A program made the translations under genes and the position numbers. This document shows, in pieces, positions 11,286-57,432 of a stretch of 64,000 nucleotides of DNA (the first letter of the stretch is position 1; each line of letters begins with the position of its first letter). Below the pieces are notes generated by a model. It ran no database searches and was not told the DNA's origin. It saw nothing but the letters and a program-made list of their open reading frames with translations. Source of the DNA: Polycladomyces zharkentensis (GTDB lineage: Bacteria > Bacillota > Bacilli > Thermoactinomycetales > JIR-001); the NCBI RefSeq assembly GCF_016938855.1, contig NZ_JAFHAP010000006.1, forward strand, positions 160,143 through 224,142. The letters are read 5' to 3'.

Positions 11286-11474
11286 TTGACCAACCAGAAG
11301 GGGAAGCCCCTGTTGACCAACAGGGAGAGGGAAGTGTTCGAGTTACTGGTCCAAGACAAGACCACCAAGGACATTGCTCAACAACTGTTTATCAGCGAAA
11401 AAACCGTCCGCAATCATATTTCGAACCTCATATGTACCTATTGCAGAAAAGTGTTTATGTTCTTCAACAAGTGA
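11286..11474 (+). CDS. gerE: gerE, 5' segment of a split gene (codons 1-47)
   Basis: GerE is the small LuxR-type regulator acting with SigK in the mother cell to switch on late coat genes. Codons 1-47 (11286-11426) match it closely: KPLLTNREREVFELLVQDKTT, then FISEKTVRNHISN of the recognition helix region. TTG start behind AGAGGGGTGG, which follows the SigK promoter. Homology ends abruptly after Asn47 at GAAC (11423-11426); the frame then runs 15 unrelated codons to a stop at 11474. The rest of gerE (VMQKLNVKGRSQAVVELV...) is at 57355-57432. As it stands this half lacks the last helix of the HTH domain and should be inactive. Confidence 0.93.
   Translation: MTNQKGKPLLTNREREVFELLVQDKTTKDIAQQLFISEKTVRNHISNLICTYCRKVFMFFNK
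11423..11445. other. attL of the gerE prophage
   Basis: GAAC core (11423-11426) where gerE homology stops, followed by CTCATATGTACCTATTGCA (11427-11445). That 19-mer is the reverse complement, with one mismatch, of the 19-mer preceding the core at attR (57332-57350). So the site is half gerE (attB) and half phage (attP). Confidence 0.88.
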
Positions 11475-11550
11475 CCTTGAGCGCGATGGTGACACACTAT
11501 ATATGACTTAAGAATGGGGACAAAAATGCGCTTTTCAAAAAGCACAGTAA

Positions 11551-11576
11551 GAAACCACCGGCAGGTGGTTTCTTTT
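11551..11576 (+). terminator. terminator inside left end of prophage
   Basis: GAAACCACC (11551-11559) pairs with GGTGGTTTC (11564-11572), followed by TTTT. It would stop transcripts that enter the prophage from the gerE promoter before excision. Confidence 0.75.
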
Positions 11577-11579
11577 ACG

Positions 11580-12320
11580 ATGCTCCAGAGTGGCTCCAAA
11601 TTCCGCGAATCGTTGCCGGCCCCCTAAATAAAGCTGAATGCTGTATATGAAAAGAAATGAACAAAATCACTTTGCTAAAATATTCGTTAATCGAACATTT
11701 TCAATCTCAAAACTCCCATTCGCTAGGTCTTCATTGGTAGTTGCGGCTAGTGCTTCGTCGGAAAGTCTCAAAAAGGATCGTTTTTGAGACTAAGGTCTAC
11801 TGTGGTCAGGCATACTGTCAAACAAAAAACGCCATCTCGGTGGGATAAGGTAGTTTGCGGTGAGGCTCGGTTGTTCTGATAAGAAAGCCGGTATCAGAAG
11901 TTAGACGGATTCACGAAAAGTCCCATCAATAACGATTACAAAAGGGAAGTAACCGAGGAAGAGGGGGATACCAGAGCCGAGTTGGATTTTTTTACCCAGC
12001 GTTTTGTAGGGTTTTTCTTTTTGGCGAGTTTTATTTCCAATAATTTACAGTATATAATGTGTGAAGAAGCACGCCGACGGGGTGTGGTTCCCACACCAGA
12101 TTACGCATTACGCAAAACTCCTTCAAGCTTACCATTTGGATATTTTACACATACGAAAGGATATCTAGTTTGTGTTTACACTGTACGTTGCAATTCCTTA
12201 ATCACGATTTCCCCAGGTTCATTCCTACTAAAATAATATCTCTTTATAGCTACCTCCTCTTAACAAATTTATATCATCGCCGTGATTCCCTTTGTAGTCC
12301 ATCTTTCCCTCCCAAGTGAC
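11580..12320. other. gene-poor left arm of the prophage
   Basis: No supported gene. A perfect 10-bp inverted repeat GTCTCAAAAA/TTTTTGAGAC (11765-11774 and 11781-11790) is present. One frame at 11982-12236 has no RBS and an odd composition. Could hold regulatory DNA for integration or excision, but I see no proof. Confidence 0.4.
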
Positions 12321-12322
12321 GG

Positions 12323-12352
12323 ATGACAATTTTATAAGACGTAGGTTATAAT
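12323..12352 (+). promoter_or_regulatory. SigA-type promoter at the left end
   Basis: ATGACA (12323-12328), an 18-base spacer and a perfect TATAAT (12347-12352), reading into the small ORF at 12412. Likely active in the lysogen. Confidence 0.55.
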
Positions 12353-12411
12353 GAGAACATACATTCGCATTAATACGAAATTCCTAAAAACACGAAAGGG
12401 GGGAGGGTATA

Positions 12412-12681
12412 TTGGGGGAAACAAGAAAAAACCACCCGGCGGCGGGTGGTTCTGTGGAACATTATAGAAAGGATATATCCGCACTAAGTCTACTACATAT
12501 TGATACGTGTGCCAATAGTGAAGATGAAGAAACGCTAGAAGAAACCTTGGAAAGGGCAGCGCGTTACTTTGGGTTCGGTCCAACAATGGATGCATATAAA
12601 GTATGTGTATGGTTACGGGACAACAAGAAATTGACCGATCATGATATTCAAGAAATTGAACGGGTTATTCGGTATGAGTAG
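12412..12681 (+). CDS. small acidic protein, first gene of the prophage
   Basis: 89 aa if the TTG at 12412 (behind AAAGGGGGGAGG) is used; 75 aa if the GTG at 12454 is used. Between them lies a hairpin (ACCACCC/GGGTGGT, 12431-12450) that could attenuate transcription or hide the RBS. The peptide is acidic (EDEETLEETLERAARYFG) and ends convergently with the CI-like gene, overlapping it by 17 bp. No family recognised. Its place beside attL and its own SigA promoter make it one candidate for an excision-control factor or an immunity accessory; neither is shown. Confidence 0.55.
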   Translation: MGETRKNHPAAGGSVEHYRKDISALSLLHIDTCANSEDEETLEETLERAARYFGFGPTMDAYKVCVWLRDNKKLTDHDIQEIERVIRYE

Positions 12682-13057
12682 CCGATTCTTCCCGTTCAAT
12701 GGCAGCTTGGATAATTCTTTGGATAAGCTTCCGTTCTTCCTCGGTTAGCTCACGCCCACCCCAATGGGCCCTTTTTTTGTTTAACACTTCTTTTAAGTCA
12801 GCGTATTCGGTTTCACTGGTGTTTTCATTGATTTTTACATTTGGATCATCAATTCGACCTAGAAGATAGTCAGTGGTGGTGTGAAGTTCGTCTGCCAGTT
12901 TCAGTAGCATCTCATTGGAAGGTGTACTGTATCCATTCTCATAGTTTGAGATCGTTCCCTTTGTCGTATTTACTCGTCTTGCCAATTCTTCTTGAGAAAG
13001 CCCTCGTGCTTTTCTAATAGATCTTAGACGAACCTTTATCATCGACGTCTTTGACAT
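12665..13057 (-). CDS. CI-like phage repressor, XRE family
   Basis: 130 aa. HTH at about residues 12-66 (RKARGLSQEELARRVNTTKGTISNYENGYSTPS), the classical XRE helix-turn-helix with following helices (LLKLADELHTTTDYLLGR). The tail (67-130) is charged and may oligomerise; no Ser-Lys autocleavage domain is seen, so induction may depend on an external antirepressor or protease, as in ImmR-type systems. ATG at 13057 behind an AAAAGGGGGG RBS. Divergent from the Cro-like gene, with shared 17-bp operators between them. Most likely the lysogeny repressor. Confidence 0.85.
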   Translation of the reverse strand: MSKTSMIKVRLRSIRKARGLSQEELARRVNTTKGTISNYENGYSTPSNEMLLKLADELHTTTDYLLGRIDDPNVKINENTSETEYADLKEVLNKKRAHWGGRELTEEERKLIQRIIQAAIEREESATHTE

Positions 13058-13237: not shown

Positions 13238-13525
13238 ATGAAAAACATTGCTCTAAGATCAGCACGTCTTGAAAAGGGATTGACTCAAGACGAATTAGCC
13301 AAAATGCTTGGATACAAGGGAAGACAGTCGATTTCAAACTGGGAAAACGGTTATGTAGAACCACCACTAAAAGTCGCAATCAAAGTGTCAAAAATCCTTG
13401 GAAAAGATCTAGAGTATCTTTTTTCATGCTACAAAGTACAAGAAACTCATACAAATAATGTGACTCAGGATGAATCCCTCGATAGTGGTCCCGTACAACT
13501 GTCCAACGTGCATAGCATACCTTGA
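13238..13525 (+). CDS. Cro-like XRE regulator
   Basis: 95 aa. HTH at about 5-58 (LRSARLEKGLTQDELAKMLGYKGRQSISNWENGYVEPP). The ATG at 13238 is chosen because GAGAGGTGAAGCTG precedes it; the frame opens further up inside the operators, which cannot be coding start. Divergent from the CI-like gene, so it probably plays the Cro or antirepressor role in lytic choice. A fifth operator copy lies inside the gene at 13436-13452. Confidence 0.8.
   Translation: MKNIALRSARLEKGLTQDELAKMLGYKGRQSISNWENGYVEPPLKVAIKVSKILGKDLEYLFSCYKVQETHTNNVTQDESLDSGPVQLSNVHSIP
13436..13452. promoter_or_regulatory. fifth operator copy, inside the Cro-like gene
   Basis: GTACAAGAAACTCATAC, 15 of 17 bases as in the consensus of the intergenic operators, 214 bases downstream of the nearest one. 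Could allow DNA looping by the repressor. Confidence 0.6.
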
Positions 13526-13535: not shown

Positions 13536-13670
13536 ATGCCATCGACTAAGCGGGCCATCCTCCGGATCGGCAAGGAGACATACGGGACGAAAAAGCTGGA
13601 GGAAGCATTCCGCGAAGCGCTCGCACCTTACTTCTCCGAAGCCGAGAAGGAGAATGAGTCCAAGAACTAA
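13536..13670 (+). CDS. small phage protein, unknown
   Basis: 44 aa (MPSTKRAILRIGKETYGTKK...). The ATG at 13536 follows a GAGGTGG RBS; an upstream in-frame ATG at 13470 lacks one. Basic N-terminal half, acidic tail. Unrecognised; in line with the early operon. Confidence 0.55.
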   Translation: MPSTKRAILRIGKETYGTKKLEEAFREALAPYFSEAEKENESKN

Positions 13671-15163: not shown

Positions 15164-15991
15164 ATGATGAAAATCACTGATAGCATTGCAAACATCTCCA
15201 TGGCACTCAGTAAGTTTCAGGCTGCCGTAACCAATCCAAAAAAAGAATCGGTGAACCCTCATTTCAAATCCAAGTATGCCGATCTTGACTCCATTATCAA
15301 CGCCATTCGGCCGGCATTGAATGAGTGTGATCTAGCGTTTATACAAAACCCCGTCAAAGATGAAAACGGAATAGGCGTCTATACAATCCTCCTTCACAAA
15401 TCAGGCGAGTACATTCAATTCGATCCGGTATATATCCCGATCAAAGCGGAGACACCCCACCAAGTAGGAGCCGCGATGACATACGCCCGCCGTTACTCAT
15501 TGGGTGCAGCTCTCGGGATCGCCACAGATGAAGACGATGATGCAAACTCTATCCAACCGATGACCGGAAGAGAGACGACTCAACAAGCGAAACGGCCAGT
15601 CAGACAGGAAACGAAAGGTCACCAGGCTGGACAACGAGCGGAACGGAACCTGAATCAGTGGAAGCAGTTGGCCAAGGCCAATGAACACACCCAATCGGAA
15701 GACAGCGAACGTAAACGGTTTTTCGCCATATGCGCCAAGAAGAAAATCACTGAAAAGGCACAAAAGGCTTTAGTCTTCGGTTTCACTGGAAAAGAGAGCC
15801 GGAAAGATGTCACGAACGAGGAGTTTAAGGTGATCTCTGATTTCTTAGAAAAAGCCACAAGGCAAGAGATCGAAAAAGCGATCAATGAAGCGATTGAGTC
15901 AGTAAAGAGACAAAACACTCCAGACATGAGTGGTATCTCCGATGAAGAGATCATGAATCTTTTGGGTGATCCTGATAAACAAGCGGTATAA
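15164..15991 (+). CDS. erf: ERF-superfamily single-strand annealing protein
   Basis: 275 aa. ERF proteins anneal homologous single strands in phage recombination and genome circularisation. The family core is clear: VNPHFKSKYADLDSIINAIRPAL, then HKSGEYIQFDPV and GAAMTYARRYSLGAALGIATDEDDDAN at about 103-130. The C-terminal half is charged and variable, as usual, and may bind SSB or partners. AAGGGGTG RBS. No exonuclease partner is seen next to it. Confidence 0.9.
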   Translation: MMKITDSIANISMALSKFQAAVTNPKKESVNPHFKSKYADLDSIINAIRPALNECDLAFIQNPVKDENGIGVYTILLHKSGEYIQFDPVYIPIKAETPHQVGAAMTYARRYSLGAALGIATDEDDDANSIQPMTGRETTQQAKRPVRQETKGHQAGQRAERNLNQWKQLAKANEHTQSEDSERKRFFAICAKKKITEKAQKALVFGFTGKESRKDVTNEEFKVISDFLEKATRQEIEKAINEAIESVKRQNTPDMSGISDEEIMNLLGDPDKQAV

Positions 15992-16008
15992 CAGGAGGAT
16001 GATTTCCG

Positions 16009-16200
16009 ATGGCATTGGAGGCAAAACGGTTGCAGAAATTGTGGCCGATTAAGGAACGGATCGACTTCCACCTGGATGATCTGGAGAACGATTTGCGTGG
16101 GTTGAACCAAGCAATTGAGTTGGGGCACTACGAAGCTGTTCGGCAGATTGCGAACGATATGAGCTGGACCATTGAGAAACTGAGAGAGCTGAATGGATAA
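16009..16200 (+). CDS. small helical phage protein
   Basis: 63 aa, probably all helix (LQKLWPIKERIDFHLDDLENDLRGLNQAIELG), AGGAGGATG RBS. Unrecognised. Follows erf by 17 bases in the same operon. Confidence 0.6.
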   Translation: MALEAKRLQKLWPIKERIDFHLDDLENDLRGLNQAIELGHYEAVRQIANDMSWTIEKLRELNG

Positions 16201-16272
16201 AGGCACTCCGGGCCAGACAAAAAACATCTCTCTGGGAACTGGCAGAACTCACTCTTGAATGAGGTGATAACG

Positions 16273-16467
16273 ATGGCGGTATATCAAGCGGAGTATTTCT
16301 TTGAAGGCAATTATGGCATGGACTATTTGAATCATGGTGATTTGGTGCAACTTCCAAACGGAACACGGTTCCGTGTTCTTTGGACCAAGAAGCACGGCAA
16401 AGAGTTAGTTTACAACACCGATACCTTAGGTCTGATCTACGCACGTGAATTGAAACGAATTGGCTAA
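16273..16467 (+). CDS. small phage protein, unknown
   Basis: 64 aa. ATG at 16273 preferred over an upstream ATG because GAGGTGATAACG is spaced correctly. Beta-rich composition with GDLVQLPNGTRFRVLW, reminiscent of small barrel folds. No family assigned. Confidence 0.6.
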   Translation: MAVYQAEYFFEGNYGMDYLNHGDLVQLPNGTRFRVLWTKKHGKELVYNTDTLGLIYARELKRIG

Positions 16468-16514
16468 CGGGCGGCCACTGCCGCCCATCCAAACCAACAG
16501 GGGAGTGATTGAAT

Positions 16515-17453
16515 ATGGCAAGACGCCGGATGGTTGACCCAAATTTTTGGGAGTCCGAGGATGTAGCCGCATTGACCCATCGCCAACGGTTGCTGTTGAT
16601 TGGCCTTTTTTCTAATGCTGATGACCACGGGCGTGGTCGTGCCCATCCCTCCTATGTTCGGTCGAAGGTATTTCCCTATGATGACATCACTTTACGGGAG
16701 ATCCAGCAAGACCTTGATTGTATTGCTCAACGAATCAATATTCGTTTCTACACCGTAAATGAAAGCCGCTATTACGCCTTCATGAACTGGGATAAATGGC
16801 AGACCGTCCAGAAACCGCAACCCAGTAAGATTCCGGAGCCACCAACTGAAGTAGTCCAAGAGATTAAACAAGATGAGACCGAGGGCGTACCAGAACCAGA
16901 ACCTTTTGAGAATCATTCCGGAACGAGTCTGGAACAAGTCGAGAATGATTCCGGAATGGGTCAAGAATCATTCCGGAACGATTCTCTCCTAAAAGAAAAG
17001 AAAGGAAAAGAAGTAGTAGTAGTAAACGCTGCTGCTACTGACGGTGATGATTGGTTCGAGAATGATTACTCCCCTGAACAACAGGAAGATATCAAGAGAG
17101 TGTCCGATCACTGGAGAAAGAAACGGGCGATCCTTCACATCTCTCCTGATGATCTTACCGCCATTGAGGACTTGGTGGTAAGGGAAAAGGTTCCGGCTGA
17201 CGAGATCATCCAGGGTATTGATCGGATCTTTGATGAGTTTGCCAAGCGAAAGAAATACCGTGGTCAGAAGATCAACACTTTCCGGTATTGTGTACCAGCG
17301 ATTCTGGAGGGCTTTGATCGTAAGCAGGCGGGGGCTAATGTCCGACCATTCCGCAATGCGTATCCTGAGCCGGCACGGCCTAATGTGATTGATGAAGGTG
17401 CGGTGGCTAAATACCGGGCGATCCTTGACAAGCAGAAAAAACAACGCGCTTAG
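16515..17453 (+). CDS. DnaD-like replisome organizer / phage initiator
   Basis: 312 aa. The N-terminal 100 residues (RRRMVDPNFWESEDVAALTHRQRLLLIGLFS) are the winged-helix start typical of phage replisome organizers that bind the origin and bring in helicase. A variable Pro/Glu/Asn linker (about 112-165) is followed by a C-terminal DnaD/DnaB_2-like region (ILHISPDDLTAIEDLV...). The ATG at 16515 suits the GGGAGTGA RBS; a TTG six bases earlier is possible. The linker is encoded by three repeated 15-mers, which look like origin iterons. The replicative helicase gene follows directly. Confidence 0.75.
   Translation: MARRRMVDPNFWESEDVAALTHRQRLLLIGLFSNADDHGRGRAHPSYVRSKVFPYDDITLREIQQDLDCIAQRINIRFYTVNESRYYAFMNWDKWQTVQKPQPSKIPEPPTEVVQEIKQDETEGVPEPEPFENHSGTSLEQVENDSGMGQESFRNDSLLKEKKGKEVVVVNAAATDGDDWFENDYSPEQQEDIKRVSDHWRKKRAILHISPDDLTAIEDLVVREKVPADEIIQGIDRIFDEFAKRKKYRGQKINTFRYCVPAILEGFDRKQAGANVRPFRNAYPEPARPNVIDEGAVAKYRAILDKQKKQRA
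16910..16979. repeat. three iterons inside the initiator gene, putative replication origin
   Basis: Near-identical 15-mers on the same strand: 16910-16924 GAATCATTCCGGAAC, 16943-16957 GAATGATTCCGGAAT, 16965-16979 GAATCATTCCGGAAC. Offsets are 33 and 22 bases, about three and two helical turns. A purine-rich run (about 16986-17015) follows on one side. This matches the known habit of phage origins to lie inside the initiator gene. Confidence 0.6.
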
Positions 17454-17467
17454 TGGGAGGGGCCACA

Positions 17468-18784
17468 GTGGAGGAGTTCGTGCCTTACGATGCCCGTTTG
17501 GAGCAGGAAATTATCGGGTGCATGATCTACGAGCCCACTTGTGTAGCGGATGTAATCGAAATGGTCAAACCACAGCACTTTTATATCCAGAAACACCGGG
17601 TACTTTGTCAGGAGATCTATCGATTATGGCAGCAGGATGAGAGCTTGGTCAATCTCACAGAGTTGGCTCCTTTCCTGCAGAAAGAGGGCATCAAAGTCAG
17701 CGATGTGGTAGCCATGGTTGATCTGGTGACCTCAACCAGGACTGTACGTCATCATGCTGAGCGCTTGAAGCTGATTGCCTCACTTCGGGCAGCCACGGAA
17801 TTGGGCCGGGAGATGGCATCCAACGTACACCTTCGGGATCGGACAGAGATCCGGGAGACGCTCAACCGGTTTGAGCAGCGCCTTTCGCAAATCACGGAAT
17901 CATCGACGAATATGCAGACGATGACCTGTATCAACGATGCCCTATTGCGGTTTAACGATTGGTTTGAACGCGTATGCGATCGAGGTGCAGGTGTAACGGG
18001 TATACCGACCGGATTTGATGACCTGGATGCTATCACGGCCGGATACCAGAAGCAGGACCTGATCATTTTGGCTGCTCGGCCATCCATGGGGAAAACAGCC
18101 TTTGCTCTTGCCTCCGCTATTCATATGGGCCAGAAAGTACCAGAACCCATCCTGTTCTTCGAGCTGGAGATGAAAGAAGAGGATTTGATCAAGCGAATGA
18201 TCGCAAACAAGGGTATGGTCGACATTCACCGGATCACGATGGGGGACGTGGATGAGGAATTGCTGGAGAAGGTCACCTTTGCCCAATCGGAGCTGTCCAA
18301 GTTGAATCTGGTGCTGGATACACAACCTAGCATCACGATCCAGGAGATGAAGGCCAAGGCACGGCGGTTGAAACGGGAACAGGGTCTTTCCTGTGTCATC
18401 GTGGACTATATTGGCCTAATCCCTGGGGAACGCGGAATGTCTCGATATGAGACGGTGTCCGAGAACACGCGGCAACTGAAAAACATGGCCCGGGAGTTGA
18501 ATGTTCCAGTAATTGCTCTTGCGCAATTGTCGCGTGGGGTGGAACAACGGCAGGACAAGCGACCGATGCTCTCTGATCTCAGGGAGTCTGGAGAGATCGA
18601 ACAGACGGCGGATTTGGTGATGTTCCTGTACCGGGACGATTACTATCATGCGGAATCTGAGAAGAAAAACGTTGCGGAAGTCATTGTGGCCAAGCATCGC
18701 AACGGGCCGACGGGCAAGGTGGAAATGTTGTTCCTGAAGGAATACGGGCAGTTTTTACCGCTCACATGGAGGGATGAACGGTGA
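17468..18784 (+). CDS. dnaB: replicative DNA helicase, DnaB family
   Basis: 438 aa hexameric 5'-3' helicase for phage replication. N-terminal DnaB domain (about 1-110, DARLEQEIIGCMIYEP), linker, RecA-like motor with Walker A PSMGKTAF (about 203-210), Walker B region SCVIVDYIGLI, and the later LAQLSRGVEQRQDKRPMLSDLRESG motif. GTG at 17468 behind GGGAGGGG; an earlier GTG at 17453 lies upstream of that RBS. It is not a phage-type loader; the DnaD-like protein upstream may load it. Confidence 0.9.
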   Translation: MEEFVPYDARLEQEIIGCMIYEPTCVADVIEMVKPQHFYIQKHRVLCQEIYRLWQQDESLVNLTELAPFLQKEGIKVSDVVAMVDLVTSTRTVRHHAERLKLIASLRAATELGREMASNVHLRDRTEIRETLNRFEQRLSQITESSTNMQTMTCINDALLRFNDWFERVCDRGAGVTGIPTGFDDLDAITAGYQKQDLIILAARPSMGKTAFALASAIHMGQKVPEPILFFELEMKEEDLIKRMIANKGMVDIHRITMGDVDEELLEKVTFAQSELSKLNLVLDTQPSITIQEMKAKARRLKREQGLSCVIVDYIGLIPGERGMSRYETVSENTRQLKNMARELNVPVIALAQLSRGVEQRQDKRPMLSDLRESGEIEQTADLVMFLYRDDYYHAESEKKNVAEVIVAKHRNGPTGKVEMLFLKEYGQFLPLTWRDER

Positions 18785-47289: not shown

Positions 47290-47466
47290 ATGTATAAAAT
47301 CATCTCATTTGAGAACTCTAATTATTCACAGTCGGAGGTCAAATTAACGAAGACATAATCGTAGCAGAAATGTTGTTGGCTCGCCATCGGCGGAAACGCC
47401 AAAATAGCTATTTATTTGTGAATCGTTGCCGTACCCCGTATAAGAAAATGGGGCTTTTCGGCGTGT

Positions 47467-48364: not shown

Positions 48365-49192
48365 ATGTGGTGGTTCTGGGTTATCCTCTTGATATGGACA
48401 CTCTTTCCTGTATGGCAACAATATTGGATCAATTCTCAACGCATACGGGTAATCCGGCAAATGGAGCGTCAACGGGGAACACGAGTGATCACGTTGATTC
48501 ATCGTCAAGAGACAATTAGATTTCTCGGGATTCCGCTCAGGAATTATATCTCGGTGGAGGACTCTGAACAACTTCTTCGTGCCATTCGTTTAACTCCCGA
48601 CTCAATGCCAATTGATCTCATCTTACATACACCGGGCGGGCTTGTTTTGGCATCGGAACAAATCGCACGTGCACTAAACCACCATCCGGCCAAAGTCACG
48701 GTATTCGTTCCACACTATGCGATGTCTGGTGGAACCATGATAGCACTCGCGGCCGATGAAATCGTTATCGATGAAAATGCGGTCTTGGGGCCTATTGATC
48801 CACAGATCGGACAGTACCCGGCTGCGTCACTTATCGAAGTGGTGGCACAGAAACCCATTGAAAAAGTGAAAGATAATACCTTGGTATTGGTTGATATCGC
48901 ACGAAAAGCGCTCAAACAAGTAGAAACCTTTTTGACGGAGCTCCTTAAGGACAAGATGGATTTGGCTAAAGCGCAGGAATTAGCCCATGTTTTGTCCTCT
49001 GGACTCTGGACACATGATTATCCAATCACTATAGAGAAACTCAAAGGGTTCGACCTCCCAATTCAAGTTGGCCTTCCTCGGGAGGTATACACATTAATGG
49101 AATTGTATCCACAACCTTCGCAGAGGAGGCCTAGTGTACAATACATCCCAATGCCGTATGAGAGTAGCGGTGATACAAACGGCCGATCCTAA
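48365..49192 (+). CDS. SDH-type membrane serine protease (ClpP/crotonase fold)
   Basis: 275 aa. One N-terminal membrane span (MWWFWVILLIWTLFPVW). Core: PIDLILHTPGGLVLASEQIARAL, VFVPHYAMSGGTMIALAADEIVIDENAVLGPIDPQIG, with the nucleophile Ser in MSGG, as in serine dehydrogenase proteinases. ATG at 48365 behind GAGGTGTCG. Its 3' end is duplicated at 45281-45434. Confidence 0.85.
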   Translation: MWWFWVILLIWTLFPVWQQYWINSQRIRVIRQMERQRGTRVITLIHRQETIRFLGIPLRNYISVEDSEQLLRAIRLTPDSMPIDLILHTPGGLVLASEQIARALNHHPAKVTVFVPHYAMSGGTMIALAADEIVIDENAVLGPIDPQIGQYPAASLIEVVAQKPIEKVKDNTLVLVDIARKALKQVETFLTELLKDKMDLAKAQELAHVLSSGLWTHDYPITIEKLKGFDLPIQVGLPREVYTLMELYPQPSQRRPSVQYIPMPYESSGDTNGRS

Positions 49193-49261
49193 TATGGTTT
49201 TTTACCAGCATCACTGGCCGTTCTACGACAAAAATTCCGGGAGATAATTTATCTGTTGATA

Positions 49262-49298
49262 CAAACCCGCCCAGGTTGTGAGGCACTGGGCGGGTTTG
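49262..49298 (+). terminator. terminator, repeated type
   Basis: CAAACCCGCCCAG/CTGGGCGGGTTTG with loop GTTGTGAGGCA. Related hairpins with the same loop occur near 51449 and at 63592-63630. Confidence 0.75.
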
Positions 49299-49466
49299 CT
49301 GAGGCTGGAAGAGGCACAGGAGGATGTGTGATATGTCCCCTTGCCTTGGGAAACATTTATTGATATAGAGTAAATGTTTTGATAAATGATAGTAGTTATT
49401 CCTCATATTCATCCTTGAACGTGATATATTTTAATTAGAATATTGCCAATAATAAGGGGATTACAA

Positions 49467-49884
49467 ATGAAACTCCTTCGCTCTCTTGTGATTGCTGTGG
49501 CGCTGGTAGTGTCGTCTATTACAGTTTTACCTTCTCATAGCACTAATGCTTATAGCAGCTACGACGTTGTACTTTATTTCCCGCTAGATCGATATCCAGA
49601 AACCGGTGATCATATTCGCGATGCCATTGCAGGCTGGCCAACCGGATGTTTGTACGATCGAACGGGATGGAGCGGATGAAAGACGGGAGGAATCGCTTGC
49701 TCCTTATCCGCCAATCAGTGGATATGATCGTGATGAGTGGCCAATGGCTATGTGCCTTGAAGGCGGTGCAGGAGCAGATGTTCGTTACATCAGCCCGAGT
49801 GATAACCGTGGAGCAGGCGCATGGGTGAGCAACCAACTTGAGGATTACCCGGACGGTACTCGGGTGAAATTTATTGTTCAATGA
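49467..49884 (+). pseudogene. nucB: nucB, sporulation-specific DNase, frameshifted
   Basis: Closely matches B. subtilis NucB, an extracellular DNase made by the mother cell: signal peptide, [26 protein letters not shown], then in another frame [43 protein letters not shown] and [15 protein letters not shown] to FIVQ. One extra base near 49631-49633 (GCAGGCTGG) breaks the frame between the two parts. All catalytic-type residues lie after the break. Either a true pseudogene or a sequencing error. Confidence 0.88.
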
Positions 49885-49892
49885 TAAAAAAG

Positions 49893-49918
49893 AGCTACCC
49901 TTAGCGGGTAGCTTTTTG
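49893..49918 (+). terminator. terminator after nucB
   Basis: AGCTACCC/GGGTAGCT stem (49893-49913) then TTTT. Confidence 0.75.
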
Positions 49919-49955
49919 TGTGTTCTGGGGAAACAGAATGGGCAAGTTTTATTAT

Positions 49956-50213
49956 TTATCGCCCTCGGTTATCGCGATCGCGACCGCGCAGGCCCAAGAG
50001 TCCTAACAGACCGGCTAATCCAATCCATCCCCAGTCAAAATCGTTATCTTGGGTACCTGTGGCAGTCCGCTGGATGTTGTTCATCATACCCCGGTTATTG
50101 TTGTCATTCACTTGAACAACTTGACCAGCCATTTCCGCCGAAACATGAGGAACCTGAAAAGCGAATGCGGTCAGCATTACGGTGGTCACAAACAATGCAA
50201 AGAACTTTTGCAT
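49956..50213 (-). CDS. WGxxGxxG-family exported protein, copy 2
   Basis: 85 aa. Same signal peptide and Asn-rich middle as copy 1, with FDWGWIGLAGLLGLLGLRGRDRDNRGR at the end. The duplication includes about 150 bases upstream (to near 50365), so promoter and RBS were copied as well. Confidence 0.8.
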   Translation of the reverse strand: MQKFFALFVTTVMLTAFAFQVPHVSAEMAGQVVQVNDNNNRGMMNNIQRTATGTQDNDFDWGWIGLAGLLGLLGLRGRDRDNRGR

Positions 50214-50376
50214 GGTGATACCTTCCTTTCGGTTATGTTTGCCTTTAGATTCCCACCCTTAATGTTTTTCATACAGTGAATTTGTGCTGTTTTGAGTGTG
50301 ATTTGAGGTTTATTTTTTGTTCGATCTGACAAAATAAGCATGTGATATATAATTTCCCTCCTTAAAGTGGTCAAAG

Positions 50377-50408
50377 AAAGACCCGGTAAAGATGTTACCG
50401 GGTCTTTT
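50377..50408 (-). terminator. terminator after the DUF3231 gene
   Basis: AAAGACCCGGTAA/TTACCGGGTCTTT perfect 13-bp stem (50377-50407); T-runs come from the stem ends on both strands. Confidence 0.75.
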
Positions 50409-50410
50409 TG

Positions 50411-50926
50411 TCAGACTGGTTCTGTTTGCTTCACTTGGAGTGGGGGCAAAACGAGCCACCCTTTATCTTTGTTCATCTTTAAGAGTTGGCCAGCATACTG
50501 GGCTTTCTTCATGTGAAAAGCACCAAACATGGCTGCGATGTCTTCCCGGGTGCATTGCCCCATGGCTTGACTGCAAGCAACCAATCCTGCGGCGTAGTCC
50601 ATGGACAGGGCGGCGGCGATTTCAGGATCATTGAACCGGGCTCCAGGAGGGATGTCCTCCAAATTTGCCTTTGGTCGTTCAGGTGGAGCCGGAGGGAGGG
50701 ACACCCCGTTTTCCTTCAACAGTTGGGTGGTTTGTTCGATTTCCGGTTGGATGACGTTTCGAATGGTATCTTGCAGAAAGGTCCGGAGATCTTGATCACC
50801 AGCATGGTTTAAGTAGGTTTGGTATCCCGCAAAAAAACCTTGTGCAGCTTGTGCAAAACTCCATACACTGAAGACTTCACCGTAGTGCATGGGCTCCTTC
50901 TGTTGATCACCACTTAAAATCCCCAT
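50411..50926 (-). CDS. DUF3231 ferritin-like protein, coat-F-like
   Basis: 171 aa. Two helical pairs (YGEVFSVWSFAQAAQGFFAGYQTYLNHAGDQDLRTFL, PEIAAALSMDYAAGLVACSQAMGQ) fit DUF3231 proteins, relatives of CotF-like coat proteins, common in spore formers. The ATG at 50926 is chosen because TAAGGAGGATGATC precedes it; 50 earlier codons in frame lack support. Confidence 0.75.
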   Translation of the reverse strand: MGILSGDQQKEPMHYGEVFSVWSFAQAAQGFFAGYQTYLNHAGDQDLRTFLQDTIRNVIQPEIEQTTQLLKENGVSLPPAPPERPKANLEDIPPGARFNDPEIAAALSMDYAAGLVACSQAMGQCTREDIAAMFGAFHMKKAQYAGQLLKMNKDKGWLVLPPLQVKQTEPV

Positions 50927-51185
50927 GATCATCCTCCTTAGTTGAATGTTAAATCCTGATACTCTAATGGGTATAAGAATGGGATCGACGGTTATAGGTT
51001 TTGATGGTTCCTGTTTTTTATACTGGCTTTTGTTGGGATAAGAAATTGGTGAGGTTAGTGACCATATTATTTCCATACTCGTTTTTAGATCATTCTCGCT
51101 GCAACTTGTAGATGATCCCTTTCAATGGCCCCAAAACATCTTCCGTGTTTTTATATGGTCGCTTCGTTCCGCTTTCTCCCCAAAA

Positions 51186-51415
51186 TAAATTTTGCCACCA
51201 TCAAAGTCCGAATGCTCTCCATAGACGCCCCTGAAACGAGCATCTGGAATCCCAATGATCCACTTGATGAATTGCCTTATGAATTTCGGCTGTTTGTCGG
51301 GTCACCGGCAACCCGACAAATACGCTGGTAACTATGAAACTGAAGAGTACGTGGAAGATCAATACAAGGATATTACCATAGAACAAAGGGTGTTCTTTTA
51401 GAAAGAGGAGGATAC
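51186..51415 (+). pseudogene. thermonuclease-like fragment (copy inside prophage)
   Basis: ATIKVRMLSIDAPETSIWNPNDPLDELPYEF matches the SNase fold motif region (KVRLxxIDAPE) without a start or the N-terminal part; the frame breaks afterwards and ends YKDITIEQRVFF. A related pseudogene is at 61468. Gene remnant. Confidence 0.6.
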
Positions 51416-51762
51416 CAAAAAAAGCTGGATATAAAGTAAAAAAAAGAAACCCGTCCAGGTTGTGAGGCCCTGGGCTCGGTCATAGTCCTTTTTGCGAAGA
51501 TAAATTTCTTGTGTGGTAAAGTAAATAAACTGGTCCCTTACTGTCAGAGACCTGTTTATCATTCATTTTATCCTCCAATAAAAAAGCACCTATAAGGGTG
51601 CTTTAAGATAATCATTTGACTTGGTTCTATTTACAGTGGCTACAAATCAGTGATTATGAGTGTTATCATCCTATGACGTGGCGTCAGCCGATGATGTACT
51701 ATCCTAATATATGATGAAACACCATTACTATTTGTTTTCCACACTGGACCGCATGCCAATGG
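51416..51762. other. intergenic, no gene seen
   Basis: Contains a weakened hairpin of the CCCGTCCAGGTTGTGAGG type (near 51449) and CACCTATAAGGGTG (51591-51604). No gene supported. Confidence 0.4.
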
Positions 51763-52800
51763 TCATGAGTTCTTTCCTTCCAGATATCGCTTGTCCTTCA
51801 TGAACAGGCGCCAAAATAACACAAAGCCTGGCAATAAAATCGCCAACCCGATTGTGAACACTTTCAACAAGGAGTAAAAGGTGTTGATCTGCGTGAACGC
51901 TTGATTGACGGTCAGATACGGATAAACGATATACGGCAGGTGTGACGCGCCATAGGCAAAAGTAGCCAATGCGTACTGGATGGCCACAAACACCACCGCC
52001 ACCCGCGGCCGCCCAATCTTTTTGTCCTTCGTTTTCCACCACAAGGCCACGTAACCGATGAGAAAAGCGATGATCGACCACACATACCAAGTATTGTACC
52101 GCAACAACCGGTCCAACAGCCAATCTGCTTCCGGTTCCAGTGTATAAAGCGTAAAAACCGCTACCAACAACGTGATCGGACCAAACGTAATCGCATATCG
52201 GCGGTACACCTCATACGCGCTATCATCGCCCGACTCCCTGGCATAATCGGCCAAGAAAAGCGAAGACAAAAAGAGCTCCGACGACAAACCGAACAAAATG
52301 TACAAATAGACAGACGGGCTGGTCAACCATTTGCCGAATAACAATTCTTCCTGCCCATGGATCATTTGCACAAATCCCCCCTGGGTGACGGGCAACGCAC
52401 TGATCAAAAGTGCGGGGATAAACAGAGCGGTCAGTCCCGACACCACTTGCAACGCCTTTCTGTACCGCTCGACTGAAAAGGCAAACACCATAAAGGCGCT
52501 GCGGATTGAAATTAAGAGCATAATGATGCTGACCGGCACAATCAGCACCGTACCCAACATATAAGCAGCCTTCGGGAAAAATCCGACGGTCATCACTACC
52601 AGGAGCACAAGGATGGTATTGGTCACTTCCCAAGTCGGCGACAGAAAACGGTTGGCGATTTTGCCCGCCTGCGTATGCTGGTTCGCATGAACCATCGCCC
52701 AAAAGCTGGCGCCAAAATCAATAGATCCGGCCAAGCTGTAAATATAGAGCACAACCCAGACCGTCAGGATGGCAATGGATGGTTCAATGGGCTGCACCAT
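51763..52800 (-). CDS. cydB: cytochrome bd quinol oxidase subunit II
   Basis: 345 aa with about nine membrane spans. Partner of CydA in the terminal oxidase that reduces oxygen with quinol at high affinity. Opening (IAILTVWVVLYIYSLAGSIDFGASFW) is typical of CydB with FG in the first span. ATG overlaps cydA by 17 bases; GAGGATACCC RBS. Carried inside the prophage, unlike usual chromosomal sites. Confidence 0.9.
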   Translation of the reverse strand: MVQPIEPSIAILTVWVVLYIYSLAGSIDFGASFWAMVHANQHTQAGKIANRFLSPTWEVTNTILVLLVVMTVGFFPKAAYMLGTVLIVPVSIIMLLISIRSAFMVFAFSVERYRKALQVVSGLTALFIPALLISALPVTQGGFVQMIHGQEELLFGKWLTSPSVYLYILFGLSSELFLSSLFLADYARESGDDSAYEVYRRYAITFGPITLLVAVFTLYTLEPEADWLLDRLLRYNTWYVWSIIAFLIGYVALWWKTKDKKIGRPRVAVVFVAIQYALATFAYGASHLPYIVYPYLTVNQAFTQINTFYSLLKVFTIGLAILLPGFVLFWRLFMKDKRYLEGKNS

Positions 52801-54151
52801 GGGTATCCTCTCCTAACGTTTCGTTTGACTTAAGATCCAAGGCAATCGGGTGGCGTTTGAAATAATGGGTGAGCACCAAGCAAACGAGCGTGCCAAGGAA
52901 AAGGTAAACAAGGGCAAACGCGACAAATAGCGCCCCCAAATGTTCCGCTTTCGTCGCCGCCTCCGCCGTAGTTTGGATATGGTAAATCGTCCAAGGTTGG
53001 CGTCCGCTACAACTGAAAATCCAGCCGAATTCAATCCCTAAGATGGACAAGGGGCCTGTCGGCAACAGAAGGTACAGCAGCCATTTCGGCCACCACGGTT
53101 GACCATTCCGTTTGCGCAACCACCAAACCAACAAGGCCAAGCCCGCCAAACCCAACAATAGAAAGCCAATACCGACCATGACGTTGAACAGGGTATGGGT
53201 ATAGGCTGGTGGCCACGTCCAGCGCGGAAATTCCTCCAAACCCTTCACCACGGTGTCGAAGCGATTGCCCGCCAAAAAGCTAAGCAGATAAGGAACTTCA
53301 ATCCCACCGATGATTTCCTTTTTTCGGTAATCTACATAACCACCAATCGCCAGCGGTGCATAACGCTGCGTTTTAAACAAGCCTTCCGCCGCCGCCAATT
53401 TCTCCGGGGTGTACTCATGCAACCCTTGCGCCGATTCATGGCCCGACAAGGCGGTGAGGAATGACATCGCCACCGCCACTACCAAAGACAGCATCAACGC
53501 TTTGGTGTGGATCAAACGTTCGGCCTGGCTGGTTTTCAGCAAGCGGTAAGCTGCAACGGAAGCAATCACAAAAGCGCCGGTCATCAACGCGCTGACCACA
53601 ACATGGTATGCAGTCTCATAAAAGCTGGGGTTAAAAAAGGCTTTCCACGGATCCACATCATAAATCGTCCCGTTGGGCTTGACTTTAAAGCCGGCCGGTG
53701 TATTCATCCAAGTATTGACGGAGGTGATCAAAACGGCTGACGCGGTCGCTCCCAATGTCACCAAAAACGCTGCAATCACCCGATAAGGCGGACGCAACCG
53801 GTCAGCGCCATAAACATAAATCGATAAAGCCAACGCTTCCAAGAAGAAGGCAAAAATTTCGACTTGAAAGGGAACGGCAATCACTTGGCCGACAATGCGC
53901 ATAAACCCAGGCCACAATAAGGACAGTTGCACTCCGACGATGGTGCCGCTGGGAATAGCTACTCCCAACAGGATGGCCACGCTTTTGGTCCAACGCTTGG
54001 CCAAAATACCAAAATCACGGTCTTTCTTCCAATAATGGATCAATTCGCTCAAAAAAACCATAGCAGACAAACCGATCGCCAACGTGGCAAAAATGATATG
54101 GAAAGCCAGCGACGTACCAAAAAACGCCCGTGCCAGCGTTACTGTGTCCAT
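52784..54151 (-). CDS. cydA: cytochrome bd quinol oxidase subunit I
   Basis: 455 aa. TVTLARAFFGTSLAFHIIFATLAIGLSAMVF start with the heme-ligand His in SLAFHIIF; further conserved SGTIVGVQLSLLWPGFM and a short Q-loop, as in Bacillus-type oxidases. ATG 54151 behind AAGGAGT. Two-gene operon with cydB, no regulator or cydCD in view. Confidence 0.92.
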   Translation of the reverse strand: MDTVTLARAFFGTSLAFHIIFATLAIGLSAMVFLSELIHYWKKDRDFGILAKRWTKSVAILLGVAIPSGTIVGVQLSLLWPGFMRIVGQVIAVPFQVEIFAFFLEALALSIYVYGADRLRPPYRVIAAFLVTLGATASAVLITSVNTWMNTPAGFKVKPNGTIYDVDPWKAFFNPSFYETAYHVVVSALMTGAFVIASVAAYRLLKTSQAERLIHTKALMLSLVVAVAMSFLTALSGHESAQGLHEYTPEKLAAAEGLFKTQRYAPLAIGGYVDYRKKEIIGGIEVPYLLSFLAGNRFDTVVKGLEEFPRWTWPPAYTHTLFNVMVGIGFLLLGLAGLALLVWWLRKRNGQPWWPKWLLYLLLPTGPLSILGIEFGWIFSCSGRQPWTIYHIQTTAEAATKAEHLGALFVAFALVYLFLGTLVCLVLTHYFKRHPIALDLKSNETLGEDTHGAAH

Positions 54152-54184
54152 AGGTAAACACTCCTTCGAGCAATTGAAATTCAA

Positions 54185-54676
54185 CTCTAGTGTCCGCCCA
54201 AAAGAGGGTTCTTAAACATAGAAAATCGCAAAGGACATCCCCGACGTCCTTTAGGCTTTCCCTTACCCGAGCGTTACTTACGTATCCGAGGTGGCCGACA
54301 CTTGGATATAGAAGATGGAGATCGGTACCGGAAAACAGAAACGGTCAGAGCAGGAAAAGGTGGTGAACATCGAATTGCATTTATGAATCACAAAGCGGTG
54401 AAGAGTAGTTTGAAGTGCGTGGGGAAGGATCGGTTTTTGTCGGAGACGGGCACACACGGATGACACGCCAGGCATCCACTACTTGGTTCGGCGATACTTG
54501 GATAAGTTTGGGCTGGAGGATTGTTCTTCTCATTTTCTCCGGCTCTCTTTTTGCCGTAGGAGCGGAACGCCTAAGGATAACTCCTAAAACCGTTTGTCCG
54601 GTGTTGGCCTTGTTTCAATATGCTTGCCCAACATGTCGTCATCCATTTTTGGGCACCCTTTAAAAGGGTGAGGCAA
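54185..54676. other. intergenic, no gene seen
   Basis: About 490 bases between the divergent cydA and uvsE starts. Open frames of 65-82 codons lack RBS and look like decayed coding DNA. Should contain the cydA promoter; I could not point to a Rex box. Confidence 0.4.
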
Positions 54677-55642
54677 ATGATCGTGCGCTTTGGGTTTGTG
54701 GCGATGAGCATGCGGGTAAAAAACGCGTCGCCCTCCAAAAACATGACGGAAAAAACATTAAAACAAATCGGTAATCGCGGGTTGGCTGCCAAAAAAGTGA
54801 TTCGCCTGGCCAAAGAAAACCTAAATAACACGAAGAGAATTTTGTATCATGCGCTTGCCCACGACATTCGACTTTATCGTTTTTCTTCCCGCTTAATCCC
54901 CCTGGCCGCCCATCCGGCTTTTCAAAAGGTAGACTTCGTGCGTGTGCTTGTGCCCCAGTTGCGGGAAATCGGCCAAATCGTTCGGGAAAACGGCATGCGG
55001 GTAGGCTTTCACCCCGAGCATTTCACGGTCCTCAATTCACCGCGCCCGGAAGTGATCCGTTCCTCCGTGAGAGACCTGATCCGCCAGATCCGTATGTTGC
55101 GCGCGATGGGGCTGGATGAGGCGTACAAATGTAATATTCATGTTGGCGGCGCGTACGGGGACAAAGACGTTTCAGCCGAACGGTTCATTACCACATTTCG
55201 GAAGTTGGACTCGCGCATCCAAGCCCATATTTGTCTGGAAAACGATGATACCACGTTCACGGCCCGTGAGACGTTGGAGATCGCACAGACGGTGGGGGTG
55301 CCGTGCGTTTTGGATTTGCATCATCATTGGTTAAATCACGGCAAGGAAACCTTGGAAGAATTATGGCCACAAATTGCCCAAACATGGGCAAAAGAAAGGT
55401 TTCCTCCCAAGATTCATGTTTCCAGCCCCCGCAGCGAATCGGACCCCAAAAGCCATGCAGATTATGTCCATCCGGGCGATTTGGTGCCTTTTTTGCGTTT
55501 GGCCGCTGGGTACGGAGAACGCTTGGATATCATGATTGAGGCTAAACGAAAAGATGAAGCTTTGTTTCGACTGATGGAGGAATTGGCAAAGATGCCGCGC
55601 ATCAATCGGATCGACCAGGCGACGATCGAGGTGGAGAAATGA
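54677..55642 (+). CDS. uvsE: UV damage endonuclease
   Basis: 321 aa, TIM-barrel UvdE/UvsE. Cuts DNA 5' of UV photoproducts for repair; in Bacillus it helps spores. Conserved MIVRFGFVAMS start, HDIRLYRFSSRLIPL, VGFHPEHFTVLNS, LENDDTTFT, LDLHHHW and KIHVSSPRS with metal-binding His/Glu/Asp. ATG 54677 behind AAGGGTGAGG; the upstream frame extension is not used. Cargo gene between cydAB and the integrase. Confidence 0.9.
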   Translation: MIVRFGFVAMSMRVKNASPSKNMTEKTLKQIGNRGLAAKKVIRLAKENLNNTKRILYHALAHDIRLYRFSSRLIPLAAHPAFQKVDFVRVLVPQLREIGQIVRENGMRVGFHPEHFTVLNSPRPEVIRSSVRDLIRQIRMLRAMGLDEAYKCNIHVGGAYGDKDVSAERFITTFRKLDSRIQAHICLENDDTTFTARETLEIAQTVGVPCVLDLHHHWLNHGKETLEELWPQIAQTWAKERFPPKIHVSSPRSESDPKSHADYVHPGDLVPFLRLAAGYGERLDIMIEAKRKDEALFRLMEELAKMPRINRIDQATIEVEK

Positions 55643-55718
55643 AAAAATTGGTGAGTCAAGCGATTAGCGGTTTCCCCATTTCCCGAATGACCAGACTGCC
55701 GGAGCAAGTGGCCAGTGT

Positions 55719-55787
55719 ACTCCTTGAATAACCGACATAATGTTCACTAAGGTTCAGATATGCTCGGGAAGCAATGTCCACTAAGGT
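55719..55787 (+). promoter_or_regulatory. control region of the integrase gene
   Basis: AC (55719-55720), 15 bases, CATAATGTT (55736-55744) is a near match to a SigK-type promoter (last base and spacing off). Two 15-bp direct repeats AATGTYCACTAAGGT (55739-55753 and 55773-55787, offset 34) overlap and follow it and may be operators. A sporulation promoter would be expected if excision is timed to the mother cell. Confidence 0.35.
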
Positions 55788-55861
55788 GACATCAAGATTG
55801 AAAACGGCCCTCTGTTCCGTCAAAATAGGTAATAGCAACCATTTTGCAAACGGAGGACGCT

Positions 55862-57325
55862 ATGAGCGCGAAATACGCCGTCTATGTCCGGGTATCCACG
55901 GATAAGGACGAACAGGTCTCCTCTGTGGAGAACCAGATCGACATCTGCCGGAACTGGTTGGAACGAAACGGGTACGAGTGGAATGAGCAGAACGTATACA
56001 AAGATGAAGGAATCAGCGGCACTGTGTTCCTGGATCGTCCGGCCATTCAGCTTCTTTTGGAAAAGGCGAAGCGTCGGGAGATCGATATGGTAGTGTTCAA
56101 GTCCATCAGTCGTTTAGCTCGGGACTTGAAAGATTCTCTTGAGATCCGGGAAGTGTTGATTTCCCACAACGTTCGGATCATCTCAGTGGAGGAAGGCTAC
56201 GACAGTCATAAGGCCGGCAAGAACGATATGGCCTTTGAGCTTTGGTCGCTGTTCTCGGCCCAGTACAGTCGGACGTTGTCTGCGGGGACGGCTGCTGCTT
56301 TGGCGGCCAAGGTCCGTCGTGGGGAGCACATTGGGCGAATCCCCTACGGATATCGAAGGGAGGATGGCTTTCTTGTGATCGATGAGGAGGAGGCCAAAGT
56401 GGTCCGACAGATTTACGACTGGTACAATTCCGGTTGGGGATACAAGCGGATCACCAATGAACTGAATGCCCGAGGGATCAAGCCCAAAGTAAAGAGTAAA
56501 TGGCAAGTCACATCCGTTCAACGCCTGATCCAAAATCCCATCTATTGCGGAGATTTCATTTTGAACCAGTACACAACAGTCAAGGTTGGCGGCCGACGGA
56601 AGCAGATCCGGAACCCCCGGGAGAAGTGGATTTATTTCAAGAACCACCATCCGGCAATTATCTCACGGGAGGAATGGCGTAAGGCCAACAAGAGCCAGGA
56701 AGAAGCCCTCCGCAGAAAGATCACCCCGTGGAATGAGTTCCGTGGATTAGCAAAGTGCAGTGAATGCGGATCAAATATGGTCATTAACTCCACGAGTCGC
56801 AAGCGCAGGGATGGAAATCGGTATTGGAACTATATGAAATGTAGCAGATACCGGCGTGGCGGCGGCTGTGTGAATCATGACCCCATTCTTTATGAAGACT
56901 TTCGGGCGCTCATCCTGAAGCAGCTTATGGAGAAAGGCCGGTCCGTTTCCCTGAATTTCACGAGCGACTTTGAGATCCGGAAGGAAGCTGAGTTACAGCA
57001 GTTGATGAAGACCCGGGAACAGGCAGAGAACCGAAAAAAGAACCTGGTGGATCTCTATCTTGATCAATTGATCAGCAAACAGGAGTTCGAGGAAAGGCGC
57101 CGCGAGATCGAGGAACAGATCCAAAGCCTGGAGGATCAAATTTTCTTATTGCGGAAAAGGGAGTATACGGAGAATAACATCCAGACCATCCAAGAGGCTT
57201 TTCAGTTACTTGAGGATCAAGATCAGGATCTGTATAAGGCTTTCCAAGTACTGATCGAAGAGATTCAGGTTCACCCCGATGGAACGATTGACATCGCCTA
57301 TACGTTTGAAAAGCCCGTGTCATAA
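55862..57325 (+). CDS. large serine recombinase (prophage integrase/excisionase)
   Basis: 487 aa. Resolvase domain about 4-150 with catalytic Ser12 in VYVRVSTDKDEQ and the SISRLARDL segment; recombinase domain about 165-270 (IPYGYRRE, ELNARGIKPKVKSKWQVTSVQRLIQNPIYCG); zinc ribbon about 298-340 (CSECG ... C near GGGC); coiled coil about 375-450. Same family as SpoIVCA (skin), SprA (SPbeta) and phiC31 Int. ATG 55862 behind ACGGAGGACGCT. It ends seven bases before the attR arm. Confidence 0.95.
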   Translation: MSAKYAVYVRVSTDKDEQVSSVENQIDICRNWLERNGYEWNEQNVYKDEGISGTVFLDRPAIQLLLEKAKRREIDMVVFKSISRLARDLKDSLEIREVLISHNVRIISVEEGYDSHKAGKNDMAFELWSLFSAQYSRTLSAGTAAALAAKVRRGEHIGRIPYGYRREDGFLVIDEEEAKVVRQIYDWYNSGWGYKRITNELNARGIKPKVKSKWQVTSVQRLIQNPIYCGDFILNQYTTVKVGGRRKQIRNPREKWIYFKNHHPAIISREEWRKANKSQEEALRRKITPWNEFRGLAKCSECGSNMVINSTSRKRRDGNRYWNYMKCSRYRRGGGCVNHDPILYEDFRALILKQLMEKGRSVSLNFTSDFEIRKEAELQQLMKTREQAENRKKNLVDLYLDQLISKQEFEERRREIEEQIQSLEDQIFLLRKREYTENNIQTIQEAFQLLEDQDQDLYKAFQVLIEEIQVHPDGTIDIAYTFEKPVS

Positions 57326-57331
57326 TGTCTT

Positions 57332-57354
57332 TGCAATAGGTACATATTAGGAAC
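57332..57354. other. attR of the gerE prophage
   Basis: TGCAATAGGTACATATTAG (57332-57350) followed by core GAAC (57351-57354), then gerE resumes. With attL this reconstructs attP as two 19-bp inverted arms (18 of 19 matching) around GAAC. Confidence 0.88.
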
Positions 57355-57432
57355 GTGATGCAGAAACTCAACGTAAAAGGACGGTCGCAGGCGGTTGTTG
57401 AACTTGTGCGATTAGGAGAGTTGAAAATCTGA
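57355..57432 (+). CDS. gerE: gerE, 3' segment of a split gene (codons 48-72)
   Basis: VMQKLNVKGRSQAVVELVRLGELKI then stop. Aligns with the end of B. subtilis GerE (MQKLGVKGRSQAVVELL, GELEL), the last HTH helices. It has no start codon of its own position-wise and no RBS. Joined to 11286-11426 at GAAC it gives a 72-codon GerE in frame, close to the usual 74. A terminator follows. Confidence 0.93.
   Translation: MMQKLNVKGRSQAVVELVRLGELKI

Follow-up and report, generated by a model that had tools for sequence, protein, structure and literature searches.

A prophage splits gerE at codon 47 in Polycladomyces zharkentensis

The DNA analyzed here is a 64,000-nucleotide (nt) stretch of the Polycladomyces zharkentensis genome (the window; all coordinates are positions within it), in which gerE, a very small gene encoding a late spore-coat regulator, is interrupted at codon 47 by a prophage (main feature, 11286 to 57432). 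Codons 1 to 47 occupy 11286 to 11426 on the plus strand, starting with TTG and ending with AAC, and codons 48 to 72 with the stop codon lie at 57355 to 57432 on the same strand. The element between them measures 45,928 bp from one GAAC core to the other, i.e., from the core of the left attachment site (attL, 11423 to 11426) to that of the right attachment site (attR, 57351 to 57354), both on the plus strand. Joining the flanks at GAAC yields a 72-codon GerE with zero codons lost. Taken alone, the 5′ part reads on into a 62-codon open reading frame (ORF), and the 3′ part, which codes for the end of the DNA-binding domain, is without a start of its own. A large serine recombinase adjoins the right joint, ending at 57325, 25 bases before GAAC. 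The split, the GAAC joints, the lossless splice, and the adjoining recombinase had all been put forward in a sequence-only reading of this DNA, and they held when the coordinates were re-read.

That reading had also called for a search for an unbroken gerE in close relatives and for a second copy in the same genome. Two congeners (G001 and G002) carry an unbroken gerE at the same locus; its protein is identical to the joined GerE over 72/72 residues (100%), and their DNA runs collinear across the joint, where GAAC occurs once. No second full gerE was found in the P. zharkentensis genome, where the next matches are 45 to 51% identical parts of longer ORFs, and the gerE halves are not decayed. 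The element sides of the joints, 11427 to 11450 at attL (right arm of attP) and 57326 to 57350 at attR (left arm of attP), both on the plus strand, form a palindrome at the circle joint (attP), in which 22/30 arm positions match. Its best centre falls exactly in GAAC (the next centre scores 13), on the AA of the Asn47 codon, which is the likely crossover dinucleotide. A joint at a shared CATAT was rejected, as it would put a stop codon in gerE and lies off the palindrome centre. The identity and collinearity of the congeners, the palindrome centred in GAAC, and the same split in 13 other genomes of the order (see below) put the interruption of gerE beyond chance, and we regard it as confirmed. 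The gerE leader (11140 to 11285) is nearly unchanged across the three genomes of the genus, the surrounding DNA having diverged.

The last gene of the element encodes the integrase (55862 to 57325, plus strand; 487 amino acids [aa]), which carries Pfam resolvase and recombinase domains and was matched by domains only in a search of solved structures. It is the one serine recombinase found among the window ORFs scanned, which were part of the total. Regulator, replication, packaging, head, tail, and lysis modules are all present, so that the element holds a nearly complete siphovirus gene set. A phage repressor-like regulator (12665 to 13057, minus strand) and a Cro-like regulator (13238 to 13525, plus strand) were recognized with PHROGs. 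All modules that follow lie on the plus strand: replication genes at 15164 to 18784 (an Erf-like annealing protein, a replication initiator, and a DnaB-like helicase, scanned as 15476 to 15991, 16515 to 17453, and 17468 to 18784); HNH, small and large terminase, portal, protease, capsid, and head closure genes at 26643 to 34686, seven of these ORFs having been scanned; and, by protein family scan, tail genes at 34857 to 43087 (tape measure, Dit, and tail protein) and a holin and an amidase at 43572 to 44725.

About 10 kb of nonphage genes sit between the amidase and the integrase. According to the protein family scan, this cargo (46404 to 55642) comprises an L,D-transpeptidase, a ClpP-like SDH protease, a DUF3231 protein, cytochrome bd oxidase subunits, and the ultraviolet (UV) endonuclease UvdE. 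Parts of the region have 81 to 90% identical counterparts elsewhere in this genome and in those of the sisters; three stretches (approximately 46305 to 47238, 47470 to 47823, and 49342 to 49936) are 88 to 90% identical to other places in G001 or in the same genome, and at 51240 to 51475 a segment some 200 bp long is repeated at many dispersed places in each of the three Polycladomyces genomes. Two small minus-strand ORFs within the element (46828 to 47070 and 49956 to 50213) have nearly the same start, MQKFFALFVTTVMLTAFAFQVPHVSAEMA. No RNA families or tRNAs were found in the window.

The same split recurs across the order Thermoactinomycetales

In a sample of 42 genomes of the order, our own included, gerE is full in 27, split near codon 47 in 14, and not seen in one, whose genome is 67% complete. 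The integrase was found at E ≤ 1e−100 in 14/42 genomes, and these are exactly the 14 with a split gerE; in each, it lies near the gerE 3′ half. The chance of a random match of the two sets is 1/C(42,14) = 1.9e−11 when relatedness is ignored. The named loci of the order come from Laceyella, Shimazuella, Thermoactinomyces, Baia, Croceifilum, Marininema, Paludifilum, and Thermoflavimicrobium. In 14/14 elements, the best palindrome centre of the circle joint falls between the two A's of codon 47, with 14 to 22 of 25 positions matching.

The elements range from 5,091 to 49,206 bp, and an all-against-all ORF comparison revealed, frames overlapping the integrase aside, only two gene families common to nearly all of them, the integrase and one small protein. 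All 14 keep both gerE halves, the integrase, the att arms, and this small protein, a candidate recombination directionality factor; even elements that have lost phage genes and have shrunk to about 5 kb retain the integrase, the small protein, and the att arms. The split gerE genes of the order represent a family of elements whose breadth is new here, gerE elements themselves being already known. The recurrence also bears on the idea that the split is an assembly artefact or a chimera. The P. zharkentensis genome is a draft of 22 contigs, but both joints lie on one contig, and independent genomes, some of them closed, show the same arrangement with the same core, which makes an artefact hardly credible.

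A small protein is a candidate directionality factor

In the window, the candidate is a 44-aa protein of a GirX-like family, encoded at 13536 to 13670 on the plus strand. The all-against-all comparison detected the family in 13/14 elements of the order, and 14/14 was reached once the middle of the G033 element had been read. In small elements, its gene immediately precedes that of the integrase; in phage-like ones, it belongs to the early region. A profile of the family gave 99 matches, or 103 when widened; where these are named, they are called hypothetical, and they have no Pfam domain. The members share the motif LxxGKExYGxxxxxEAFxxALxPYF. Outside the order, the family was met only in five loci and in phage CBP1, a count based on 10-kb flanks that may miss others. 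It includes Bacillus paranthracis P0258 (41 aa) and P0260 (42 aa) of the Bacillus cereus group (hhalign, 97%), and P0260 and a 64%-identical integrase, P0087, are found on contigs of equal size (123,217). No similar solved structure was found for the small protein. An AlphaFold model of moderate confidence (predicted local distance difference test [pLDDT] score, 75) shows two helices and was not used.

Upstream of the gene lies GTA-N15-CATA (13493 to 13514, plus strand), which by pattern match resembles a sigma-E-type promoter. In Bacillus subtilis, spoIVA and spoIIID are sigma-E dependent. Within the order, ATA-N15-CATA occurs in the upstream region of spoIVA in 30/30 cases and in that of spoIIID in 22/29 usable cases. 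The pattern [AG]TA-N15-CATA precedes the small gene in 9/14 elements, each time as GTA, versus 10/294 other ORFs and 2.5% of shuffles; because the elements are related, the nine sites amount to fewer than nine independent cases. These matches suggest that the small gene may be controlled by a mother-cell sigma factor of the sigma-E type.

A close precedent is gin, the gerE element of B. cereus ATCC 10987 (also present in Bacillus toyonensis), for which excision during sporulation has been proven (PMC5595907). This answers the question left by the sequence-only reading of whether gerE elements had been reported: they are in print, also being cited in PMC6957869 and PMC10747680, and the window element is a prophage member of them. 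The proven directionality factor of gin, GirX, has 42 aa and is said to have no conserved motif (PMC5595907).

The split gene appears to be kept functional

Both gerE halves are open and conserved in all 14 split genomes. Over all pairs, the ratio of nonsynonymous to synonymous changes (pN/pS) is 0.064 for the 5′ half and 0.081 for the 3′ half, values that include the time before insertion. The Shimazuella species sampled all have a split gerE (3/3), and pairwise comparison of their 3′ halves gives 22 synonymous differences but 0 nonsynonymous ones. A single collinear element of 5.1 to 5.8 kb is common to Croceifilum, Baia, and a Thermoactinomyces; its copies are 83 to 87% identical, much like their flanks (77 to 91%), and two Laceyella genomes share more than 11 kb at 94 to 95%. 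These patterns indicate inheritance rather than repeated entry, so that the split gerE has been passed on for a long time without decay. An integrase tree, built by a quick method with support from the Shimodaira-Hasegawa-like approximate likelihood ratio test (SH-aLRT) only, keeps these genera together.

A truncated product could in principle take the place of GerE, with no need for excision: the 5′ part forms the 62-codon ORF, which would give a 62-residue protein, and the genome encodes other LuxR-type proteins that might serve instead. Yet the 3′ part stays under purifying selection, and in B. subtilis the truncated GerE of B. cereus had no activity (PMC5595907), so that we consider such a replacement very improbable. 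The prophage might alternatively do nothing but inactivate gerE, using it as a convenient attB and leaving on phage induction only, with spores that are coat defective or not formed at all. The phage gene set looks complete, such that induction alone could explain the integrase, and neither congener has the insertion, which could be recent. However, the split gerE has remained undecayed through species divergence in three genera, and the elements of about 5 kb hold on to their core after the loss of phage genes. Sporulation genes are likewise kept, spoIVA in 42/42 genomes and spoIIID above the cut-off in 41. Moreover, the homologous gin excises in sporulation and not on mitomycin (PMC5595907). 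Mere inactivation is therefore unlikely.

We conclude that the prophage in codon 47 is very probably excised in the mother cell by its own integrase and a directionality factor, rejoining gerE. The sequence-only reading had compared the arrangement to skin, and the comparison gains support from the unbroken gerE of the congeners, the lack of a second full copy, the serine-integrase att anatomy, the gin-homologous site, and the retention in 14/14 elements. In the mechanism that we propose, the serine integrase and the small directionality factor would cut the prophage out in the mother cell and restore the 72-codon gerE. Crossover would take place at the AA of Asn47. The 44-aa protein would act as the directionality factor under sigma-E-type control, and excision would come late enough for the spore chromosome to keep the prophage. 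In vegetative cells, a repressor would hold the prophage, and gerE, which is not needed for growth, would be silent; induction would lead to phage excision by the same integrase. We infer excision in this strain, its timing, and the role of the factor from sequence.

Several observations weigh against this proposal or parts of it. No joined gerE was found in the assembly of this strain, and no sigma-E-type site was found before the integrase of the window. The small protein is likely a directionality factor, but that role is assigned by association only, and PHROGs gave it weak matches only, to families of unknown function. Some 42 kb separate its gene from the integrase, and in the early phage region to which the gene belongs lytic control would be expected as well; the promoter-like site before it has GTA instead of ATA and is absent in 5/14 elements (G011, G016, and three Shimazuella). 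In G033, one of two copies of the small gene is broken, namely that at the left end, the copy in the middle being intact. Because the congeners lack the insertion, it may be young in Polycladomyces, in which case conserved halves in this genome prove little. Finally, gin has no phage genes and is not phage derived (PMC5595907), a trait that the window element does not share.

Relatives outside the order, free forms, and footprints

Across 398 sampled genomes of the class, the integrase was detected (E ≤ 1e−90) in 19, of which 12 belong to this order and seven do not. Six of the seven carry the gerE 3′ half beside the integrase, and in the seventh, Bacillus sp. SKDU12 (G260), the contig ends in such a 3′ half. 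G096 contains a further, broken integrase copy. Among 25 named loci, 22 show a gerE half and one more (L130) shows it at a contig end; the integrase is broken in L131 and present as a fragment in L133. At three loci (L119, L124, and L138), the joint is attL-like and the integrase gene occupies the 5′ end of the element, pointing towards the 5′ half of gerE, i.e., attP is used the other way round.

Only three of 35 IMG/VR loci contain gerE, a scarcity that says little since most of these contigs are cut at prophage ends. Two pattern scans for free attP in IMG/VR gave 0 matches each. Two contigs, L151 (16/22) and L160 (17/22), carry an intact attP beside the integrase and no gerE, which suggests that they may be free phage forms; random 110-bp stretches reach 16 in 0.6% of cases. 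A third candidate, L135, scored only 11 and was dropped.

The G260 assembly contains attL, attR, and an unbroken gerE together. One contig begins within gerE and covers the gene in full, a second stops at codon 47, and the contig of the element (41,346 bp) has the 5′ joint at its start and the 3′ joint at its end. The simplest reading would be a DNA sample in which inserted and empty chromosomes were mixed; mixed cultures are another possibility. Traces of past elements were found as well. In G008, a frame-shifted, attL-like 5′ half of gerE (L107, 1194 to 1307) located 1.1 kb before the intact gene is what remains of an element since lost. Besides its intact gerE, G038 contains three attR-like 3′ halves (L105, 8658 to 8765; L106, 775 to 858 and 18134 to 18217), one of which is followed by an integrase remnant. 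These footprints indicate that insertion and loss have both occurred.

Other integrase lineages lie at the same codon

We followed 17 of the 398 class genomes, chosen by eye for E-values between those of full and half gerE matches; families f8 and f50, with similar E-values, were left out of the selection. Thirteen were not previously known: ten have both halves, G116 has the 5′ half only, G066 has a full but divergent gerE, and G058 has the halves on different contigs. These include ten additional cases of split gerE from other Bacilli families (L265 to L274 and L279), whose adjoining integrases are 28 to 34% identical to that of the window. They form two clusters, one of seven genomes (47 to 91% identity among themselves) and one of three (45 to 79%), with 29 to 37% identity between clusters. 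The attP arms of the two clusters are unlike those of the window family and unlike each other. Of the eight for which both ends were read, seven have their best palindrome centre on the AA of codon 47, and in G264 this centre ties with another place; the scores, 11 to 17 of 22, are lower than in the window family. The seven-member cluster shows 54% identity to Paenibacillus larvae phage integrases, and for the three-member cluster no phage relative above 31% was found.

Taken together, these results point to a joint reading that we favour, though less firmly than the excision of the prophage itself. The Asn47 codon of gerE would be a convergent docking site, where large serine integrases of no fewer than three lineages, about 30% identical to one another and differing in their attP arms, which are unrelated, cross over at the same AA. 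Whatever an element brings, be it a whole phage, CRISPR-Cas, DISARM, CBASS, a restriction island, or next to nothing, would be kept because the element takes itself out in the mother cell, which requires gerE and whose chromosome is a dead end. About a third of Thermoactinomycetales species would then run their late spore-coat programme through a switch composed of one integrase and an unannotated directionality-factor family read from a sigma-E-type promoter.

Defence genes and other cargo

For PADLOC, 40 proteins were selected across eight elements. The G039 element (L095) encodes Cas9, Cas1, type I restriction, and a CBASS cyclase with a phospholipase; that of G032 (L090) has a type I-C Cas set, and G033 shares this DNA at 92%. 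DISARM genes were found in G025 (L086), type I restriction in G024 (L084), and PD-Lambda-4, pPIWI-RE, and type II restriction in G030 (L088 and L089). There was no match for two proteins of G034 and one of G016. Genes of the PrnB-like, BacA-like, and GNAT kinds, one each, are found in the smallest elements, and gin also carries restriction genes (PMC5595907). In the window, among ten proteins run, the one encoded at 25039 to 26121 matches the PADLOC candidate defence family PDC-M11A (E = 2e−144).

Significance and comparison with known systems

The splitting of gerE was previously thought to be limited to a few Bacillus strains, and it is now seen at one codon in a third of an order sample (14/42), in elements that differ in nearly everything but the integrase, attP, and one small protein. 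Such recurrence would describe a life-history strategy in which mobile DNA shelters in a gene that only a cell destined for death uses. The elements yield a testable directionality-factor family together with naturally occurring attB-attP pairs that have one highly conserved target, and they are a place to look for defence islands in spore-formers. Within the open-access literature, subscription papers being outside this scope, we found no report of gerE elements in Thermoactinomycetales, of multi-integrase convergence, or of the factor motif.

The window element shares with the class of sporulation gene-intervening elements (skin, SPbeta, vfbin, and gin) a split gene that is restored in frame, a serine recombinase, and a short direct core with inverted repeats. 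The likeness to gin extends to the site of insertion. In gin, gerE is split at the same Ile-Ser-Asn codons, the att site is palindromic, and cleavage is predicted at AA, at the 3′ end of CATCTCAAA (PMC5595907); this AA corresponds to the first two bases of the same Asn codon as here. The integrases are related, in that B. cereus-group homologues are 63 to 68% identical to that of the window, and the small partners are of the same size and, by profile, of the same family, a comparison made with homologues of GirC and GirX. GirC is reported to be 52% identical to the Bacillus glycinifermentans integrase (PMC5595907), and the B. cereus-group integrases examined here are 51.5 to 54.6% identical to it. 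In contrast to the window prophage with its head, tail, and lysis genes, gin measures 28.6 kb and has three serine recombinases (girA, girB, and girC), and its shared core is 9 bp instead of 4 bp.

A prophage in gerE is also mentioned for B. glycinifermentans BGLY, its excision being untested there (PMC5595907); in strain GO-13, the integrase at gerE is 56% identical to ours, and the host is distantly related. Caldibacillus phage CBP1 (MF595878) combines a 58.6%-identical integrase with a member of the small-protein family, in a record that ends at the integrase. SPbeta in spsM of B. subtilis resembles the window element in being a full prophage in a mother-cell gene with an integrase and a small directionality factor, but it uses another gene and another att site (PMC6957869). 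In skin, which interrupts sigK in B. subtilis and Clostridioides difficile, a serine recombinase rebuilds a late mother-cell regulator, as proposed here, whereas the target is a sigma factor and the element is defective (PMC6957869); both SPbeta and skin are likened by description. Similarly, yin in yabG of Clostridium botulinum is a prophage-like element in a sporulation gene that has a recombinase and a predicted directionality factor, although it occupies another gene and is described for a single strain (PMC10747680).

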